Virus record (IMG/VR): IMGVR_UViG_3300028840_003991
Location: 1-20,175 of that record
Strand: one strand, 5' to 3'
DNA length: 20,175 nt
DNA from: a virus
This document shows positions 2,468-16,870 of the stretch, piece after piece; position 1 is the first letter of the stretch; every line of letters starts with the position of its first letter. Below the pieces are notes generated by a model. That model saw nothing but the letters and a program-made list of their open reading frames with translations, ran no database searches and had not been told where the DNA came from. Position numbers and translations under genes: made by a program.

Positions 2468-3973
2468 ATGGCCTTACAGACACGAAATTCAGTATTGGCA
2501 ATCAAACAAGAATCAACAGAGGGAACTCCTGTAAGCCCAACAGCAGCAGGAGACTATGTTGCGCTACAGGAAGGGTTCACTATGGAACCGGCCTTCGCGG
2601 AACTCGATAACGCAGAGCTAACTGGCTCTATTGCAAATGCTAAGACCGTGCTTGGAATTGAAGAACCTAGTGCGTCATTTTCTCACTACTTCAGGGCCTC
2701 CGGGGTAGAGGGGCAGTCCCCTAACTATGGACCATTATTGGAAAATGCATTCGGCGCAGAGACAGAAAGAAGCACTGAACGGGACACGATCGCCGCTTCT
2801 ACTGTGTCAGTTATTAAGGTCGATACAGGCGAGGGATCTGAATTTCAAAGAGGCGATGCATTGCTCGTAAAGAAGGCATCTGGTGTGGGCTATGAAATCA
2901 GAAATGCACTAAGTATCGCTACAGATGATATCACATTGGCCCAAGACCTCCAGGACGCCCCTGGGGTTGGCGTAAATCTAGGGTTAAATGTACTCTGGTC
3001 CCCTCAAAATTCAGGGCACCCTACGCACTCTTTATGGCTTTACAGAGGCAACAACGCTGCTGGTGCAGTGGAGATGATGGCCGGATCTAGAGTAACAGAA
3101 GTTTCAATTGATGTTACTGCTGGAGAGTTCGTAAATGCTTCTTACTCAGTAGAAGGAAATGAGTACTTCTATGATCCAGTTGAAATCACTGCAACAGATG
3201 TTGCTTTTGATTTTAACGATGGCTCAGCAAGAGCTGCTTCCATCACGGCCAAAATGTACAAAGATCCCTACGAGGTTGCAAGCGCCCTTCAAACGGCCAT
3301 GGATGCGCTTTCAGGTGATACAATCACAGTTGCTTACTCAGACTCAACAGGTAAATATACTGCGACATCTGATGGGGTAACCTTTGAATTATTACCTGCG
3401 ACTGGACCAAATACTGCTAATGAAGGCTGGTCTACACTAGGATTTGGCACTGCCGATTTAACAGGGGCAACAACATATGAAGCTGCCTCAGCACTCGATA
3501 AGTCTAGCCCTCAAACTGCTTCTTTTGATGCTGCTGATCCATTAGTAGCAAAATCAAATGAAGTCCTATTAGGGCCAGATGCACAAGAAATTGTGTGTTT
3601 TGAAGCATCAAGCATGACAATCACTTTAAGCAATACTAAGGCCGATATTCTTTCTGTCTGCTCTGATTCTGGTAAATCTGGATCAGTTTTCAGCGAAAGA
3701 GAGGCCACTATTGAAATAACTGCCCTCCTTGAGGATCACCAAGCAGAAGAATTTAAAAACTTCAGATCTGGTGACAATATGCTCTTTACTTACAACCTAG
3801 GTGAAAAGAGTGGAGGCAACTGGGTTGCTGGAAAATGTATGAACGTACATAGCCCAACTTGTACCATAAGCTCATTCTCTTTAGGGGATAGCGACGGCCT
3901 AGTTACTTTAGAAATGACATTGACTACTTATACAAGTTCAGGTTTAGGTGAACTTTACTTTAATCAACTGTAA
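2468..3973 (+). CDS. Major tail tube protein with an inserted domain
   Basis: This 501-residue protein begins MALQTRNSVLAIKQESTEGT and continues with a phage tail-tube pattern (ELDNAELTGSIANAKTVLG, ASFSHYFRASGVEG). Its C-terminal third has the alternating strands expected of the tube beta-sandwich (STMTITLSN-like, EREATIEITALLEDHQAEEF, LGDSDGLVTLEMTLTTY). Tube subunits polymerise as rings around the tape measure. It is longer than most tube proteins because residues about 239-338 carry an extra module (FNDGSARAASITAKMYK to GTADLTGATTYEA) that recurs in the Dit-like protein here. The start follows a strong AAGGAGCGAGGA ribosome site. High expression is expected, and codon use shows nothing odd. 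Confidence 0.85.
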   Translation: MALQTRNSVLAIKQESTEGTPVSPTAAGDYVALQEGFTMEPAFAELDNAELTGSIANAKTVLGIEEPSASFSHYFRASGVEGQSPNYGPLLENAFGAETERSTERDTIAASTVSVIKVDTGEGSEFQRGDALLVKKASGVGYEIRNALSIATDDITLAQDLQDAPGVGVNLGLNVLWSPQNSGHPTHSLWLYRGNNAAGAVEMMAGSRVTEVSIDVTAGEFVNASYSVEGNEYFYDPVEITATDVAFDFNDGSARAASITAKMYKDPYEVASALQTAMDALSGDTITVAYSDSTGKYTATSDGVTFELLPATGPNTANEGWSTLGFGTADLTGATTYEAASALDKSSPQTASFDAADPLVAKSNEVLLGPDAQEIVCFEASSMTITLSNTKADILSVCSDSGKSGSVFSEREATIEITALLEDHQAEEFKNFRSGDNMLFTYNLGEKSGGNWVAGKCMNVHSPTCTISSFSLGDSDGLVTLEMTLTTYTSSGLGELYFNQL

Positions 3974-4566: not shown

Positions 4567-7500
4567 ATGGCAGATATAAAGATTGATTTAACGCTTGCAA
4601 ACTATGCTGGTATCGTAAAAAACCTAGAAACAATCAATAATTCATTAAAGGGCCTTCAGAAAACCACACAAAAGATCAATACAGATGCGGCCACAAAAGG
4701 CTTTGAAAAGCTAAATGAATCTGTTGAACAGACTAATGAAGAATTAACTAAAATTGATAAACTCCAAAAGACTGTAGCGGGGTCATTTGGCGCTATTACA
4801 AGTGCTGTAACCCTATCTGTTGTTGCCTTTAATAATCAAAGTAAAATTATCAGCACTTTTAATAACGGTACAATTAGGGCAGCTACAGCACTACAAAAAC
4901 TTAATATACCATTCCTGAATATTGAGAAGACATTAACAAAGGCCAATATTGGTTTTGCGAATGTTGTTAAGGGATTAGCAGGAACAATAGATACCAGTAG
5001 TAAGCTTGCTAGAGCATCAGTTGTTTTAGAAAGAGGATTATTTGGTTTAGCAATTAACACAGGAACACTAGGAGCGGCCTTAGTCGGTCTGGGTACTGTT
5101 TTAAATCAATCAACAAATGCTTTCGCTGATGCTATTGGGCAGGTGAGTATTTTTGCTGGTATCTTGCTTGGTTCATTCAGTGTTGTTTTAACTAAAATTA
5201 TATTAGATCTAAGTAACTTTGCCTTTGAATTAGGTACAAGTGTGGTTAATGCGGCCAAAGATGCATCTGCTGCGTTTGCTGACTTAGACAAAAGTACTTT
5301 TGTATTTAATAGGACTGTAGAAGGTTTTAATAGGGTCTTTGGGGATGCTATAGGCAACACCGAGACCTGGACCAAAACTATTGAAGAACTTGGTATGGCC
5401 ACTGGTCTTACAACTAAAGAATTAAGAAGGTCAACCACAGAAATCATTCAGGCCACAAGTCAGATGGGTCTGAATGAGGAGCAAATGAAGAAGCTCCTTA
5501 AAATATCTGTCGATTATGCTGCCCAAACAGGCAAAGACACATTTCAAGCAACAGTCGACTTTATTACGGCCTTAAATGGTGGCGCTCAATCAGTTATTAA
5601 ATATGGCGTTAAACTTAACGAGGCCTCTGTACAGCAGAAATTATATAAAGAGGGTTCTGACACAATATTCAAATCATTGAGTGATGGACAGAAAATTCAA
5701 GCAAGATATAATGCCTTGTTGACCCAATATGCTCCAATAGCCGGTGTTGCTGCTGATATAACTAAAACATTAGCAGGACAAGAGCAAATTTTAGAGACCA
5801 ACGTTGCAAGGGTAAATGAGCAGTTCGGTAAAGGGACTGCTATTATTGAGAGATCAAACATTGTTAATTTTGCTTATAATAAGGTTTTAGGCAATATTAA
5901 TGATAATGTTATTGCAACAGCGGGCTTTTTAACGGCATTAGGTGGTCGTTTCTTACAAGTTGCGGGTTTCGTTGGCAGTCTTGTCCTTAAGCTTTTATTA
6001 CTTCAAAAAGCAATCAAGATTGTAAATATATTACTCTCCACAAATTTAGCACAAACAGCATTTGGGACATCTATCCCATTCCTCAATAAATCAATCGTTG
6101 ACTTAACCAGATCAACAGGTGCAAGCTTTGTTTCATTTAAGAGCCTTACAGATATAGTTAAAACAGCAGGAAGTTTAATTTCTGCCACGGCAAAAAATAT
6201 AACTGCCGGATTTTTAGGTATAAGCACGAGTGCTCTTAGTTTTACAACTGTTATAAGAGGTGTTTTTCTTAAGGCAGTTGTTGGTGCAAAAACTGCAGTT
6301 TTAGCACTATCTAAGGCCTTTTTGGTTCTTTTGGCAAACCCAGTCGTTTTAACAGTAGTAGCTATTTCAGCAGCTATATTTGGTTTATTTAAAGGTTTAC
6401 AAGAGTTAGAGAAACAAACAGGGGCACTCTCAACTGTATGGGAAGTATTTACTGAAGTATTAGAGGCAACATCTAGTGTGCTAGATCCTTTAATTGATTC
6501 CTTTGTTTCTTTAGGTAAAACCATTGTCACTATAGCTAACAAGGCATTTGGTTTCTTTGTGGCCCAATTAAGTAGATTGATATCGCTTGGAATTACCCTT
6601 CTTAAAAAGAATCCATTTGATATATTTGGGCAAGAGCAACTAAAAAGACTAGAAGAGGCCAACAAAAAACTTGTTGCTTTTGGCACTGCTGCTGAAGGTG
6701 TTGATTTTGATTTAAGGAAACTTAATAAAACAACCAAGAAAGCAAGTGAAGATTTCAAAAAACTTGAGTCTGATGCTGAAGGAGCAGGATCAAGAGGGAT
6801 TAAAGAATTAGAGTCATCTATTAAGTCCATTGAGACAAGATTAAGAGATTTTGGTAAAGGCCCTCTTGAAATAGCTAAAAGAAACTTCAATGAAGAGAAA
6901 AAGATTGTTGAAGATTCATTGAATGCTAAAATCATAAGCAGAGAAAAAGCAAATGAGACCATTTTAGGGCTAACAAGAGAATTTCAAGCAAAAAGACGAG
7001 CAATTGCACAGGATGCCAGAGAGAAAAGGCGCAAAGAGTTACTTGAACTTGAGCGACTTGAGCAACAAGCGGCCCAGAGAACTGCTGAAATACGTAATAA
7101 ATTCGAGGGGGCAATTGGTGTTGCTGCTGGAGATCCTTTAGGTCAATTAATTGGTGGAGCTGAGAAGTTCAGAGATACAATAACTGAAGGGTTTAGCGCA
7201 GAAGAAATCAAGAAATTCAAAACTGAAATAGATGGTCTTGGTGATAGTTTTGGTATTGGAATAGCATCAGGTTTTGCTACAAAGGTTCTTGATGGAGCTA
7301 GTGGAGCAAAAGATTTAATTGTTGGCGGTGCTACTGCTTTAGTTGACACAGTTGTGCCTGGATTAGGTAAAGCTGTGGGTCCGATATTTGATGCATTTGC
7401 ACAAGGTCCAGAAGCGACAAAAGCTTTTGTTAAAGATTTCACACGTGCAATTCCTAATCTGATAAAAAATATAATTTTAGCGGCCCCAGCTTTTATTGAG

Positions 7501-8823
7501 GCGATAATTGAAGAAATACCGATACTGGTAGAGTCGTTAATTCTGGCCATTCCAGAGGTGATAGATGGTTTTGTGGCTGCCCTGCCTCGAATTATAGAAG
7601 GTCTAATCCGGCTCATACCACGATTAATCCAAGGTATAATTAGGAGCCTACCGACTCTATTTAGGGCGCTAATCAAGGTTAGTCCTTTAATAATTACTGA
7701 GTTGGTAAAAGAGGCCCCTAGGTTTATTACTTCATTAGTGAAAAATGTCCCGCAGATTGTAGCTGGGCTTGCAAAAGGTTTACTAGGTCTTGGTGGAATA
7801 TTTAAAGGTTTTGGTAGCGGTATCTTTGATACCTTTAGAAACCTTTTAAGTAATTTTAATCCAATCAACATATTCAGAAAGATATTCCGCTTCGATGGTG
7901 GTGGCCGTGGAGCGGTCGAGAAGTTTCTCGGGTTCGATTTCCCATTTATCAAATTTGCAAAAGGTGGTTTGGTTGGTGGCCGTTCTAGAGTAAGGGGTGA
8001 TAGCCAGCTTAATGATGTTGTGCCAGCAATGCTTTCCCCAGGGGAAGTTGTCTTGCCAAGGTCTGTTGTTAATAGCGGACCTGGAGCAATGGTGCGCTTT
8101 CTACAAGACATGGGATTGGCACCCAGAAAAATGTTTCTCGGTGGCCTAGTTGGTGGTCTAGTTGACTTCGTTGGTAACGCTGTCGGTACGGCAATTAACC
8201 TTGTAACTGACACCACTGGTTTTGTTTTTGAAGGAATCACCACAGGTGACATAGACAGGATTAGGGATGGTTTAAGAAACGGTTTAGATGAAATAGGTAG
8301 TAGTGGGTTTGAGTTAAGCAGTAATCTTCTAAGTGCATTAGGAATTGATGAACTCAATTTCATACCAAACCCACCAAGAGATCTCTTAAAATCTCTAAGG
8401 GAGTTAGGTGCCAACTTAAAACTAAGCGATGTCTTATCTAACCCGGTTAGGGCCGTATCAGACGCTGTTAGAAGTCTTTTGGATACAACACTAGGTGGAC
8501 CACTTAGAAGTGTTCTCAAGGCACCAGGATTACAACAGGGTGGGACTATACCACAAGGTTTTCCTAATGATAGTTTTATAGCTGGCCTAACCAGTGGTGA
8601 AACTGTTGTACCAAGAGATTTAACTCAAAGGTTAGATCGATTTATTAACAATAATGATTCTTCACCTGGAGAGTCAGCTCAAGGTTTAGATCGTGAAATC
8701 CTATTTAGGATTTTAGAGGCATTAGAGCGCCCACTTGTAGCAAGCGCACAAGTCGATTTTAACGAGGATACCCTCGCCGATATTATTTTGACTCTCAATA
8801 GAGGTAATAAAAGGTTAGCATGA
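4567..8823 (+). CDS. Tail tape measure protein
   Basis: At 1418 residues this is the longest gene here; it sets tail length and is threaded inside the tube. The N-terminal ~90 residues form coiled coil (TINNSLKGLQKTTQKINTD). Long hydrophobic stretches follow at about residues 160-220 and 590-620 (VVLTVVAISAAIFGLF), and a charged coiled coil lies at about 745-850. Residues 962-1071 contain ten 11-residue repeats. The C-terminus carries two copies of a known tape-measure tail motif: FAKGGLVGG to LSPGEVVLPR (about 1130-1165) and QQGGTIPQG to LTSGETVVPR (about 1325-1350). I see no lysozyme or peptidase domain. By the usual ~1.5 angstrom per residue rule the tail would be roughly 200 nm, an inference. 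An AAGGGG ribosome site precedes the start. Confidence 0.95.
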   Translation: MADIKIDLTLANYAGIVKNLETINNSLKGLQKTTQKINTDAATKGFEKLNESVEQTNEELTKIDKLQKTVAGSFGAITSAVTLSVVAFNNQSKIISTFNNGTIRAATALQKLNIPFLNIEKTLTKANIGFANVVKGLAGTIDTSSKLARASVVLERGLFGLAINTGTLGAALVGLGTVLNQSTNAFADAIGQVSIFAGILLGSFSVVLTKIILDLSNFAFELGTSVVNAAKDASAAFADLDKSTFVFNRTVEGFNRVFGDAIGNTETWTKTIEELGMATGLTTKELRRSTTEIIQATSQMGLNEEQMKKLLKISVDYAAQTGKDTFQATVDFITALNGGAQSVIKYGVKLNEASVQQKLYKEGSDTIFKSLSDGQKIQARYNALLTQYAPIAGVAADITKTLAGQEQILETNVARVNEQFGKGTAIIERSNIVNFAYNKVLGNINDNVIATAGFLTALGGRFLQVAGFVGSLVLKLLLLQKAIKIVNILLSTNLAQTAFGTSIPFLNKSIVDLTRSTGASFVSFKSLTDIVKTAGSLISATAKNITAGFLGISTSALSFTTVIRGVFLKAVVGAKTAVLALSKAFLVLLANPVVLTVVAISAAIFGLFKGLQELEKQTGALSTVWEVFTEVLEATSSVLDPLIDSFVSLGKTIVTIANKAFGFFVAQLSRLISLGITLLKKNPFDIFGQEQLKRLEEANKKLVAFGTAAEGVDFDLRKLNKTTKKASEDFKKLESDAEGAGSRGIKELESSIKSIETRLRDFGKGPLEIAKRNFNEEKKIVEDSLNAKIISREKANETILGLTREFQAKRRAIAQDAREKRRKELLELERLEQQAAQRTAEIRNKFEGAIGVAAGDPLGQLIGGAEKFRDTITEGFSAEEIKKFKTEIDGLGDSFGIGIASGFATKVLDGASGAKDLIVGGATALVDTVVPGLGKAVGPIFDAFAQGPEATKAFVKDFTRAIPNLIKNIILAAPAFIEAIIEEIPILVESLILAIPEVIDGFVAALPRIIEGLIRLIPRLIQGIIRSLPTLFRALIKVSPLIITELVKEAPRFITSLVKNVPQIVAGLAKGLLGLGGIFKGFGSGIFDTFRNLLSNFNPINIFRKIFRFDGGGRGAVEKFLGFDFPFIKFAKGGLVGGRSRVRGDSQLNDVVPAMLSPGEVVLPRSVVNSGPGAMVRFLQDMGLAPRKMFLGGLVGGLVDFVGNAVGTAINLVTDTTGFVFEGITTGDIDRIRDGLRNGLDEIGSSGFELSSNLLSALGIDELNFIPNPPRDLLKSLRELGANLKLSDVLSNPVRAVSDAVRSLLDTTLGGPLRSVLKAPGLQQGGTIPQGFPNDSFIAGLTSGETVVPRDLTQRLDRFINNNDSSPGESAQGLDREILFRILEALERPLVASAQVDFNEDTLADIILTLNRGNKRLA
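7450..7779 (+). repeat. Ten tandem 11-residue repeats within the tape measure gene
   Basis: The encoded segment divides into ten units of exactly 11 residues, from IPNLIKNIILA to VPQIVAGLAKG. Nearly every unit has Pro at position 2 and hydrophobic residues at positions 4-5 and 8-9. Nucleotide sequences of the units have diverged, so the repeat is visible in protein rather than DNA. Confidence 0.85.
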
Positions 8824-9260
8824 ATATAGAATTAACACAGGGTAAGACAGCTATTATTGATGATGATGATTATGATCTAGTGAAAAATTATAAGTGGTGT
8901 GCAGTCACTCATGATAAAGGTCGAATTTTTTATGCCTGTGCGTGGGTTAACGGTAAAAGAATAAAAATGCATAAGTTAATTATGGATTGCCCACAAAAAA
9001 TGGTTATAGATCATATTGATCATGATGGTTTAAATAACAAAAGAGAAAATCTAAGGCAGTTAACAAAGCGTGGTAATCGCTGGAACAGTTTACCTAATAG
9101 GAATAGCAAGTCGGGTCTTAAATACGTAACGAAATTCAAAGATAAGTGGCAATCAAGAGTCATGAGGGAAGGGAAGAGAGTATTCTTAGGTAACTACGAT
9201 ACTCCAGAAGAAGCCAGTATAATTGGGCACTGGTACGAACAGGAGGTGGGTTATCGCTGA
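8820..9260 (+). CDS. HNH homing endonuclease with C-terminal AP2-like domain
   Basis: This 146-residue protein shows the beta-beta-alpha-metal core: MHKLI (His51), then DHIDHDGLNNKRENLRQL (residues 64-81), which provides the His and Asn residues of the HNH site. Residues about 97-146 (GLKYVTKFKDKW, GKRVFLGNYDTPEEAS) match the AP2-type DNA-binding domain often fused to phage HNH enzymes. The enzyme would nick or cut a target site so that its gene spreads to related phages. It is a free-standing insertion between the tape measure and Dit-like genes, starting inside the tape-measure stop (ATGA). Its last codons also form the ribosome site of the next gene, and its C-terminus departs from the usual AP2 ending there. 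Confidence 0.9.
   Translation: MNIELTQGKTAIIDDDDYDLVKNYKWCAVTHDKGRIFYACAWVNGKRIKMHKLIMDCPQKMVIDHIDHDGLNNKRENLRQLTKRGNRWNSLPNRNSKSGLKYVTKFKDKWQSRVMREGKRVFLGNYDTPEEASIIGHWYEQEVGYR
9241..9255 (+). promoter_or_regulatory. Ribosome binding site that points to an ATC start
   Basis: AGGAGG at 9241-9246 is a near-perfect Shine-Dalgarno. Six bases later, at 9253, the downstream frame has ATC where ATG would be expected. The next ATG in that frame is at 9283, 36 nt from the site, too far to use it. Confidence 0.65.
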
Positions 9261-10395
9261 TACAAATCAGAGAATCCGATTTATGGCCAACAACCTGGCA
9301 TCTTTGAATGTTAATGCTTTTACATTCTCTAGCGAGGTAACAGGTTTTGAGGCAAGTAATGCATTCAACTCTTTTAGATCGAGCACCTGGAGAACTTCAG
9401 GTTTCTTCAGGATTACATCGGGCTCGAATGATGAAATACATATTAATGATGGGTCAGATAAGTCTGCGACCATTGCTTCGGGAGAATATACGACGGCAGC
9501 TTCTCTGGCAACGGCAATACAGACAGCTCTTAATGGAGTATCAGCGAACTGGACAGTTACCTACGATACTGCGGGAGGCTCATACAAATTCACTATTGGA
9601 AACTCTGGCTCGGTTACCCTCAAACTTTCCACAACTACAAATGCGGTATGGAATACAATCGGATACACAGGCACAACCGACTTAACAGGGACGAGTTTCC
9701 CAGCACAGGAGCAAAGAGCACATGATCCGGTCGTTGGTGAATTTATTACTTTGGATTTTGGTGGCATACTTCCTGTCACTTTTGCTGGCGTTATATCAGA
9801 TGTGGCCGTCAGCTTTGGACTATCGTCAAGTGCTGTTGTTACCCTTGAAGGAAACAACATCAACGACTTTACTAGTCCTCCCTTCACTAAGACCTTAACC
9901 GTAAATGCTCAAGGAATATTTGAATTTAATGTTTTAGATACACCGGCAACTTACCGCTTCTGGCGACTAAGATTTGTCGACCCCTATAATTCTATACAAG
10001 GTCCGAACCTTGAGTTTGGTAACATCTACTTAGGGGATTTCCAAACCTTAACAGGGGCAAATATTCAGGCAGGTTTTGTAGATACGCTTGATGACCCATC
10101 TAAAAGGTCAGAGTCCGAGGGTGGTGTTCTTTATTTTGATAAGCGTACAAAATTTACAAGATTTAGTAACTTGGCCATAAGATTTATGGAAGATGCCGAC
10201 AAACAGATCATTAAAGATGTTTTCTCAACTGTCGGCACTACTGAGCCATTCTATGTTGCCCTTGATCCTCTTAGTAGGATTAACTCTAACACAACAGAAT
10301 TTACTAAATTTGTTATTTTTGATAGTGAGCCACAATTCACCTCTATAGGGTCATGTTATTTTAACACTGTCTTGAATTTAAGGGAGGTAGTCTAA
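9253..10395 (+). CDS. Distal tail (Dit)-like protein with discoidin-type domain
   Basis: From the proposed ATC start the product has 380 residues beginning (f)MADTNQRIRFMANNLASL. The pattern RIRFMANNL, then FSSEVTGFEASNAF, then SSTWRTSGFF and EFITLDFGG is that of discoidin (F5/8 C)-like phage tail proteins, where a short lead before 'RIRF' is usual; this argues against starting at the internal ATG 9283. Residues about 53-155 are an inserted module shared with the tail tube. The C-terminal part (KQIIKDVFSTVGTTEPFYVALDP) resembles the second half of Dit-like proteins, which form the ring connecting tube to tip. A TTG at 9223 is also in frame but has no ribosome site. The first 8 nt overlap the HNH gene, suggesting coupled initiation. 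Confidence 0.7.
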   Translation: MADTNQRIRFMANNLASLNVNAFTFSSEVTGFEASNAFNSFRSSTWRTSGFFRITSGSNDEIHINDGSDKSATIASGEYTTAASLATAIQTALNGVSANWTVTYDTAGGSYKFTIGNSGSVTLKLSTTTNAVWNTIGYTGTTDLTGTSFPAQEQRAHDPVVGEFITLDFGGILPVTFAGVISDVAVSFGLSSSAVVTLEGNNINDFTSPPFTKTLTVNAQGIFEFNVLDTPATYRFWRLRFVDPYNSIQGPNLEFGNIYLGDFQTLTGANIQAGFVDTLDDPSKRSESEGGVLYFDKRTKFTRFSNLAIRFMEDADKQIIKDVFSTVGTTEPFYVALDPLSRINSNTTEFTKFVIFDSEPQFTSIGSCYFNTVLNLREVV

Positions 10396-15899: not shown

Positions 15900-16469
15900 A
15901 TGGAGCAATTTAAGTTATTCCATAAGGGTCCAGAGGTTTTTTACTACATTGGAAACCAAGGTACATTAAAATCGTTTCGAATTAAAACAATGAAAATAAA
16001 AGAATTAAGCCCGTGTATTAGTAAGACGTGTAAGTCGGATAAGCAAGGTTATCTACAAACTCAAATAAACGTAAATGGTAAAAATAAAAACTTCAGAATA
16101 CACCGATTAGTGGCCGAAAACTTTCTGATGAAGAAGGGGCCTAAAAAAGGCTTTGAAGTTAATCATAAAAATGGCAACAAACATGACAATCGGGCCGAAA
16201 ATTTAGAGTGGGTACATAGATCAGAAAATACAAAACACGCGCATGATTACGGCCTGATAAAATCCAACGTGAAAGGTTTTATAAAATATAACAATTCAAG
16301 AAAGGGGAAGTATTGCGGATCGCACCCTTTTAAAAAAGTAGCAGAAGGTGTTACGATAGTAAGAAACACAGGATGCTACAAAACAGCGGCCAAGTTAACA
16401 GGTGTTCCCACTAAAGTGCTGTGGCATTACAATAAGAGGAGCGAAATATTCGCCGCATCAATGAAATAA
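15900..16469 (+). CDS. HNH homing endonuclease with C-terminal helix-turn-helix
   Basis: The ATG at 15900 follows AAAAGGAG at a 5-nt spacing, giving 189 residues. The HNH_3-type core is clear: HRLVAENFL (His68), then VNHKNGNKHDNRAENLEW (residues 88-105) and SENTKHAHDYGL. The C-terminal ~30 residues (KTAAKLTGVPTKVLWHYNKR) look like the helix-turn-helix repeat of intron-encoded nucleases. The domain order, HNH then DNA-binding module, is that of phage homing endonucleases. It separates the holin-like gene from the amidase. Its final 22 nt are shared with the amidase coding sequence in another frame, and supply that gene's ribosome site. Confidence 0.9.
   Translation: MEQFKLFHKGPEVFYYIGNQGTLKSFRIKTMKIKELSPCISKTCKSDKQGYLQTQINVNGKNKNFRIHRLVAENFLMKKGPKKGFEVNHKNGNKHDNRAENLEWVHRSENTKHAHDYGLIKSNVKGFIKYNNSRKGKYCGSHPFKKVAEGVTIVRNTGCYKTAAKLTGVPTKVLWHYNKRSEIFAASMK
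16436..16450 (+). promoter_or_regulatory. Ribosome binding site that points to an ATT start
   Basis: GAGGAG at 16436-16441 is followed after 6 nt by ATT at 16448 in the amidase frame. An in-frame TAA at 16433 closes the frame upstream. No ATG or GTG occurs between that stop and the first zinc-ligand codon; only a TTG at 16472 does. Confidence 0.65.
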
Positions 16470-16870
16470 TCTTGCATTGCAGCGACTCAGATGAAGAAGA
16501 GCATGATGATCACGCTCTTAAGTATCTACACCAATGGCATGTATTGGAGAACCAGTGGTCCGATATCGGCTATCACTACATCATCTCTAAGCGGAGAGGT
16601 CTTGAGCTTGGTCGTCCAATTGCGCGTCCGGGAGCACATTCTAGAGGACGCAATAACTACTCTGTGGGAATCGTCCTGTGCGGTCGATATGATTTCGATG
16701 AGTATCAATTTGCCGTTTTAGAACAACTAATAATCAACTTAATTTGTATCTTTGACATAAACCCCGATAACATCCTAGGACATTGTGAGGTGGATAGTAA
16801 TAAGACTTGTCCAAACTTCGATATGCAGGGAATCAGGGGATACTTTCATGATCGTTATAACACAAGATGA
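16448..16870 (+). CDS. N-acetylmuramoyl-L-alanine amidase (T7 lysozyme type endolysin)
   Basis: From the proposed ATT start the product is 140 residues, close to T7 lysozyme (151), beginning (f)MRRINEIILHCSDSD. The enzyme cuts the amide bond between MurNAc and L-alanine in peptidoglycan. Visible active-site residues are the zinc ligands His10 (ILHCSDS), His112 (LGHCEVD) and Cys121 (KTCPNFD), with Tyr42 in DIGYHYII and Lys119. The GAHSRGRNNYSVGIVLCG strand pair is typical. There is no signal peptide, so export needs the holin. Starting at TTG 16472 would remove the first strand and leave the zinc-binding His as residue 2. The end overlaps the next gene by 23 nt. Confidence 0.85.
   Translation: MRRINEIILHCSDSDEEEHDDHALKYLHQWHVLENQWSDIGYHYIISKRRGLELGRPIARPGAHSRGRNNYSVGIVLCGRYDFDEYQFAVLEQLIINLICIFDINPDNILGHCEVDSNKTCPNFDMQGIRGYFHDRYNTR

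Follow-up and report, generated by a model that had tools for sequence, protein, structure and literature searches.

In the window, by which we mean the whole stretch of 20,175 bases analysed here, taken from one metagenomic virus record, two genes found behind HNH endonuclease genes, a tail gene and an amidase gene, very probably begin at near-cognate codons, AUC at position 9253 and AUU at position 16448, as judged from the sequence and its homologues. We consider it likely that each of these starts is driven by a strong Shine-Dalgarno (SD) sequence contained in the last codons of the free-standing HNH gene upstream. The features of the two junctions are collected in Table 1.

Table 1. Features of the two HNH junctions and of the neighbouring genes (window coordinates)
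Feature	Position	Strand	Remarks
Tape-measure gene	4567..8823	+	its stop (TGA 8821-8823) shares an ATGA with the HNH1 start
HNH1, HNH_3 gene with AP2-like C-terminus, 146 aa, full length	8820..9260	+	
SD AGGAGG within HNH1 codons	9241..9246	+	sequence, pairing energy
ATC, proposed AUC start codon	9253..9255	+	ungapped with GTG start of HNH-free L001
Tail gene termed Dit-like, 380 aa	9253..10395	+	
TTG, rejected alternative start	9223..9225	+	without SD
ATG, rejected alternative start, internal Met of RFMANN motif	9283..9285	+	
HNH2, HNH_3 gene	15900..16469	+	
SD GAGGAG (AGGAG = 16437-16441) within HNH2 codons	16436..16441	+	
ATT, proposed AUU start codon of amidase	16448..16450	+	in-frame stop 16433-16435; ungapped with GTG of HNH-free L019
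N-acetylmuramoyl-L-alanine amidase (Amidase_2)	16448..16870	+	Pfam E 1.9e-11; PHROG 822 E 3e-28

Both upstream genes match the HNH domain PF13392 (HNH_3) above its curated cut-off of 24.8 bits, HNH1 with 35.3 bits (E 8.9e-9) and HNH2 with 44.2 bits (E 1.5e-11). HNH1 aligns with phage HNH proteins (PHROG 99) and is out of frame with the tail gene behind it. We take both for free-standing HNH homing endonuclease genes, their cleavage and homing being predicted.

At the tail-gene junction, AGGAGG is followed by a spacer of six nucleotides (TGGGTT), by the ATC and then by GCT GAT ACA, and both the SD and the ATC fall within the last codons of HNH1, since that gene reads ...CAG GAG GTG GGT TAT CGC TGA at its 3' end; an earlier note on this DNA had described this arrangement, and its description is exact to the base. 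Translation from the ATC gives (M)ADTNQRIRFMANNLASL. The calculated pairing with the anti-SD is -11.6 kcal/mol for the ATC, against -2.9 for the ATG at 9283 and -1.1 for the TTG at 9223. The name Dit-like, also proposed earlier, agrees with the position of the gene after the tape-measure gene, but this identity is unproven, as the protein has no match in Pfam and falls in PHROG 8610, a family of unknown function. Its AlphaFold model (mean pLDDT 51) was too poor to show RIRF as a core strand. Separately, a profile of the tail gene gave a weak glucanase/chitosanase match in the PDB (4zz5, 2rva; E 0.005) over residues 16-129 (window 9298-9640), a region with perhaps a carbohydrate-binding-like fold. 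Window positions 3113-3484, within the gene at 2468-3973, are 37% identical to tail-gene residues 29-151, so that a domain is common to two virion genes.

The tail gene was compared with six HNH-free relatives, all of which have an empty HNH1 site with no HNH gene at the junction. In all six an ATG or GTG start lies 3-8 codons ahead of a conserved xRF motif; in five of them this start overlaps the tape-measure stop as ATGA or GTGA. The window retains the ATGA of the tape-measure stop, its ATG now being the start of HNH1. In the nearest relative (L001, 60-61% identity), the GTG start aligns with the ATC at 9253 without a gap. A first reading of this relative had matched the ATC with its internal Ile codon 3, which would have made the window gene one beheaded by two codons, and was abandoned because the ungapped alignment puts the ATC on the GTG start. 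The exact ancestral start codon of the tail gene is uncertain, since N-terminal lengths differ among the relatives. A search of phage and genome collections for tail-gene relatives found none, and neither copies of HNH1 or HNH2 nor a second HNH-bearing copy of the window were found among viral contigs, so that the window has no DNA-level pair with and without these genes.

It is improbable that the tail protein instead starts at the ATG at 9283, which is present in frame and would yield a shorter protein with RIRF left untranslated. The equivalent of this ATG is an internal Met in five of the six HNH-free relatives and an internal Leu in the sixth, which bears out the earlier view that RIRFMANNL belongs to the family N-terminus and that this Met is internal. 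The residues R9 and F10, ahead of it, are invariant in the alignment of all seven tail-protein sequences, its SD pairing is weak in comparison with that of the ATC, and a start at this position has no power to explain the amidase.

The amidase junction repeats the arrangement, as had been noticed for two of two HNH genes in the window: AGGAG, a six-nucleotide spacer (CGAAAT) and ATT, all inside HNH2 codons. Translation from the ATT gives (M)RRINEIILHCSDS, and anti-SD pairing is -8.3 kcal/mol at the ATT and +0.4 at the TTG at 16472. Downstream of the in-frame stop, the amidase frame contains no ATG, GTG or TTG until this TTG, which would delete the first strand of the protein. The HNH-free amidase gene L019, on the same contig as L001, begins GTG-AGG-GCA-ATC (MRAIKKIIIHC), with its GTG on the ATT of the window, and two other amidase genes have ATG (L012) and TTG (L009) at the same start codon. 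The HNH2 site is empty in this relative, the L019 contig being without HNH_3. We judge the amidase to be the stronger near-cognate case of the two.

That AUC and AUU are the starts is very probable because the starts of HNH-free homologues coincide with them and because the amidase has no canonical start that keeps its first strand. Both positions combine the lack of a suitable canonical start, a strong SD at six-nucleotide spacing and a codon that is the start in homologues. The loose pattern AGGAG-N4-8-ATH shows no enrichment across the whole window (8 found, 10.7 expected). Among 5758 in-frame codons within genes, 14 are ATH with an SD of at least 5 matches at proper spacing and none reaches 8 matches, the number found for the ATC at 9253. 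At any one junction, such a codon would fall exactly on a homologous start with a chance of about 0.2%, and both HNH junctions have one there.

A second alternative, that the downstream proteins are fusions with the HNH proteins, arising through programmed frameshifting close to where the HNH frames end, could appeal to the order of SD and then stop at the HNH ends, which recalls prfB, and to the overlaps of the HNH and downstream frames (38 nt, 9223-9260, and 34 nt, 16436-16469). We regard it as very improbable, as opposite shifts would be required (+1 from HNH1 to the tail gene, -1 from HNH2 to the amidase), no slippery heptamer was seen at the two junctions, CGC does not re-pair in +1, and in the HNH-bearing allele L253, described below, an in-frame stop lies just 5' of the ATC. 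In phages, HNH ORFs commonly reside in group I introns, yet an intron-borne HNH gene with the start of the downstream gene on its 5' side is hardly credible here, as Rfam gave no match in the window with E values of up to 1 allowed and HNH1 occupies the whole interval from the tape-measure stop to the ATC, which leaves no room for a ribozyme.

The earlier note had proposed comparing junctions with and without the HNH gene, a comparison that became possible in a system unrelated to the window and not among its own relatives. It concerns a prophage gene in a whole bacterial genome (L253), in which an HNH+AP2-like gene ends in TAG, followed by GAGGCGACA and then by ATC GCA GCC TTT AAC AAA TTC. 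Thirteen alleles of the same genus, none with this HNH gene, start with ATG (11), TTG (1, L425) or GTG (1, L435), and EBPR siphovirus 2 likewise has ATG. By tblastn, the L253 HNH protein is present in the L253 genome only, other HNH types in the 13 not being excluded. One pair of leaders is TAGGAGACGACA-ATG GCA AGC TTC AAC AAG (L431/L438, one genome) versus TAGGAGGCGACA-ATC GCA GCC TTT AAC AAA (L253). Since the L431/L438 leader is nearly identical and has ATG, the L253 leader is ancestral, and its ATC arose by a point change rather than marking the edge of an insertion. The expectation of an AT-pyrimidine start replacing a canonical one in the HNH-bearing allele is supported by this comparison, with a single HNH-bearing allele among the 14 of the genus.

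Using loci that contain HNH_3 genes, we scored tight same-strand junctions, 163 behind HNH genes and 963 behind other genes; these counts are approximate, as the ORF calls were heuristic, made with no trained gene finder, and near-duplicates were dropped only by identical junction sequence. Before curation, junctions were selected that had an ATH with an SD of at least 5 and neither an ATG nor any SD-preceded canonical start; 3/163 behind HNH genes and 7/963 others qualified (p=0.17). When the plausibility of candidate near-cognate starts was judged by eye from the proteins, four cases behind HNH genes were plausible, namely the two in the window, L253 and L043 (AAGGAGG-N9-ATT), and three behind non-HNH genes. 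The curated rate is therefore 4/163 versus 3/963 with the discovery window included (p=0.010), and 2/161 versus 3/963 without it (p=0.15, not significant). These counts no more than hint at an excess of AT-pyrimidine starts behind HNH genes. The search for AUC and AUU behind other HNH genes, another proposal of the earlier note, thus produced two further cases (L253 and L043), whereas an ATG is kept near the junction in 128 of the 163. The stronger claim, that HNH insertion as such changes the neighbour's start, is not supported, given these 128 junctions and the AUC and AUA starts that have no HNH gene immediately upstream.

Among the latter is the Cas4-like gene of Paenibacillus phage Tripp (NC_028930.1, ~42,677-42,860; L222), which is annotated about 144 nt late: its homology extends 5' as far as AAAGGGGGAGATCGT-ATC, where a canonical start is lacking and no HNH gene is adjacent, and the gene seems to use an ATC start. 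The three curated non-HNH cases are an apparent ATA start of a DNA methyltransferase (L118, ~661) and apparent ATC starts with AGGAGG (L079, ~4296, and L359, ~541). AT-pyrimidine starts are not specific to HNH genes, because they are also found behind non-HNH genes, and the pattern looks real but rare.

As to mechanism, HNH1 would have been placed between the tape-measure and tail genes, at the point where the ATG or GTG of the relatives overlaps the stop and where the ATGA of the window opens HNH1. Ribosomes that are still on the HNH gene or have just completed it would be well placed to start or restart at the AUC or AUU with initiator fMet-tRNA, and reinitiation is likely, as less than 20 nt separate the stop codon of each HNH gene from the start in question. 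Extended SDs in S. aureus support AUU and AUA starts at ~10-30% of AUG (PMC13009471), so that AUC and AUU behind AGGAG(G) could plausibly support the tail protein and the amidase. We infer the actual use of the two codons, its coupling to HNH translation and a reduced output.

The C or T in the third base could be drift tolerated by the strong SD, the outcome of selection for lower output, or an escape from the endonuclease's own cleavage. It is quite possible, though we incline slightly against it, that phage genes with strong SDs in general have, on rare occasions, AT-pyrimidine starts, so that the HNH neighbourhood is coincidental, which would concern the cause and not the starts themselves. 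The cases in which no HNH gene stands immediately before the start (Tripp, L079, L118 and L359) and the lack of significant enrichment once the window is set aside speak for coincidence, while it has to face the pattern at both HNH genes of the window, at L253 and at L043, and the fact that, among the 14 alleles of the genus, that of L253 with its HNH gene alone has ATC.

We think it unlikely that the change of the third base arose as a shield of the HNH-bearing genome from its own endonuclease, again a matter of cause only. The right-hand leader and gene start of L253 are otherwise ancestral, so that a cleavable site could persist there, and only the third base of the start codon is unusual; against this, most HNH junctions keep ATG, and free-standing T4 enzymes are described as cutting hundreds or thousands of bp from their own gene (PMC2988022). 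More doubtful still is the fuller proposal that an HNH gene settling before a start leaves a third-base change which removes its own target, while AUC or AUU with a strong SD keeps a lower, HNH-coupled translation, an 'immunity written into the start codon'. If self-protection were true, it would let a selfish gene occupy an essential start codon at little cost, and allele pairs of the L253/L322 type make it testable.

Inserts were also observed in terminase genes behind HNH genes. In L164 (3422-3600; also L167, L178 and L183), TerL lies directly behind an HNH gene and has a 32-nt insert inside its Walker A motif (...GGTSAG; GGA, TGCTTGCCCCCGCTTTAACGGGCGGGGGA, GGA AAA ACA); its takeoff and landing codons are both GGA, and it has a TAA in frame as well as a hairpin. 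Minus the insert, TerL residues 2-132 align at 58% with insert-free Flavobacterium phage TerLs. From its sequence, this insert is a candidate that resembles the bypass element of T4 gene 60. A second, unrelated insert is found in L154 (3473-3640; also L179), at the same place in the Walker A motif and again behind an HNH gene, though a different one, with the order CGA, TGGTCGCCCCTTGCAGAAATGTAAGGGGGAAAGATTAT, CGA GGC GGC AAA ACT, matching CGA codons, an in-frame TAA and a hairpin (z -5.9). L154 and L179 differ within the HNH gene, while from its 3' end to the end of the insert their sequences are identical, as co-conversion would produce, and they represent a candidate mobile HNH-plus-bypass cassette.

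Because ATG, GTG and TTG are the only starts that common gene finders allow for, genes behind homing endonucleases may be mis-started or missed, examples being the tail gene and amidase of the window, L253, L043 and Tripp. Near-cognate starts and free-standing HNH genes are each known already; the literature searched (limited, open-access) yielded no report of the two in combination, with HNH-free alleles that carry the canonical codon. AUU is the start of infC and pcnB in E. coli. In S. aureus, cvfC1 starts with AUU and infC and ccpN with AUA (PMC13009471). All of these resemble the window starts in having a strong, well-spaced SD before AUU, AUA or AUC and an N-terminus fixed by homologues; they are, however, conserved regulatory starts of host genes, whereas the HNH-free homologues of the window genes use ATG or GTG and the SD here belongs to a mobile gene. 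In T4, an HNH gene (mobA) stands at the front of the essential gene 60, where translation adapts by ribosome bypassing. The window has in common with it an HNH gene before an essential gene and an adapted translation, without a bypass element and with a near-cognate start only. With the T4 mob genes and the I-HmuI-like HNHs of Skunavirus (PMC2988022, PMC12724721), the window shares the HNH domain, tight insertion between essential genes and overlap with the neighbour, while the available portions of these papers deal with control of the endonuclease's own start and not with a changed start codon of the neighbour.
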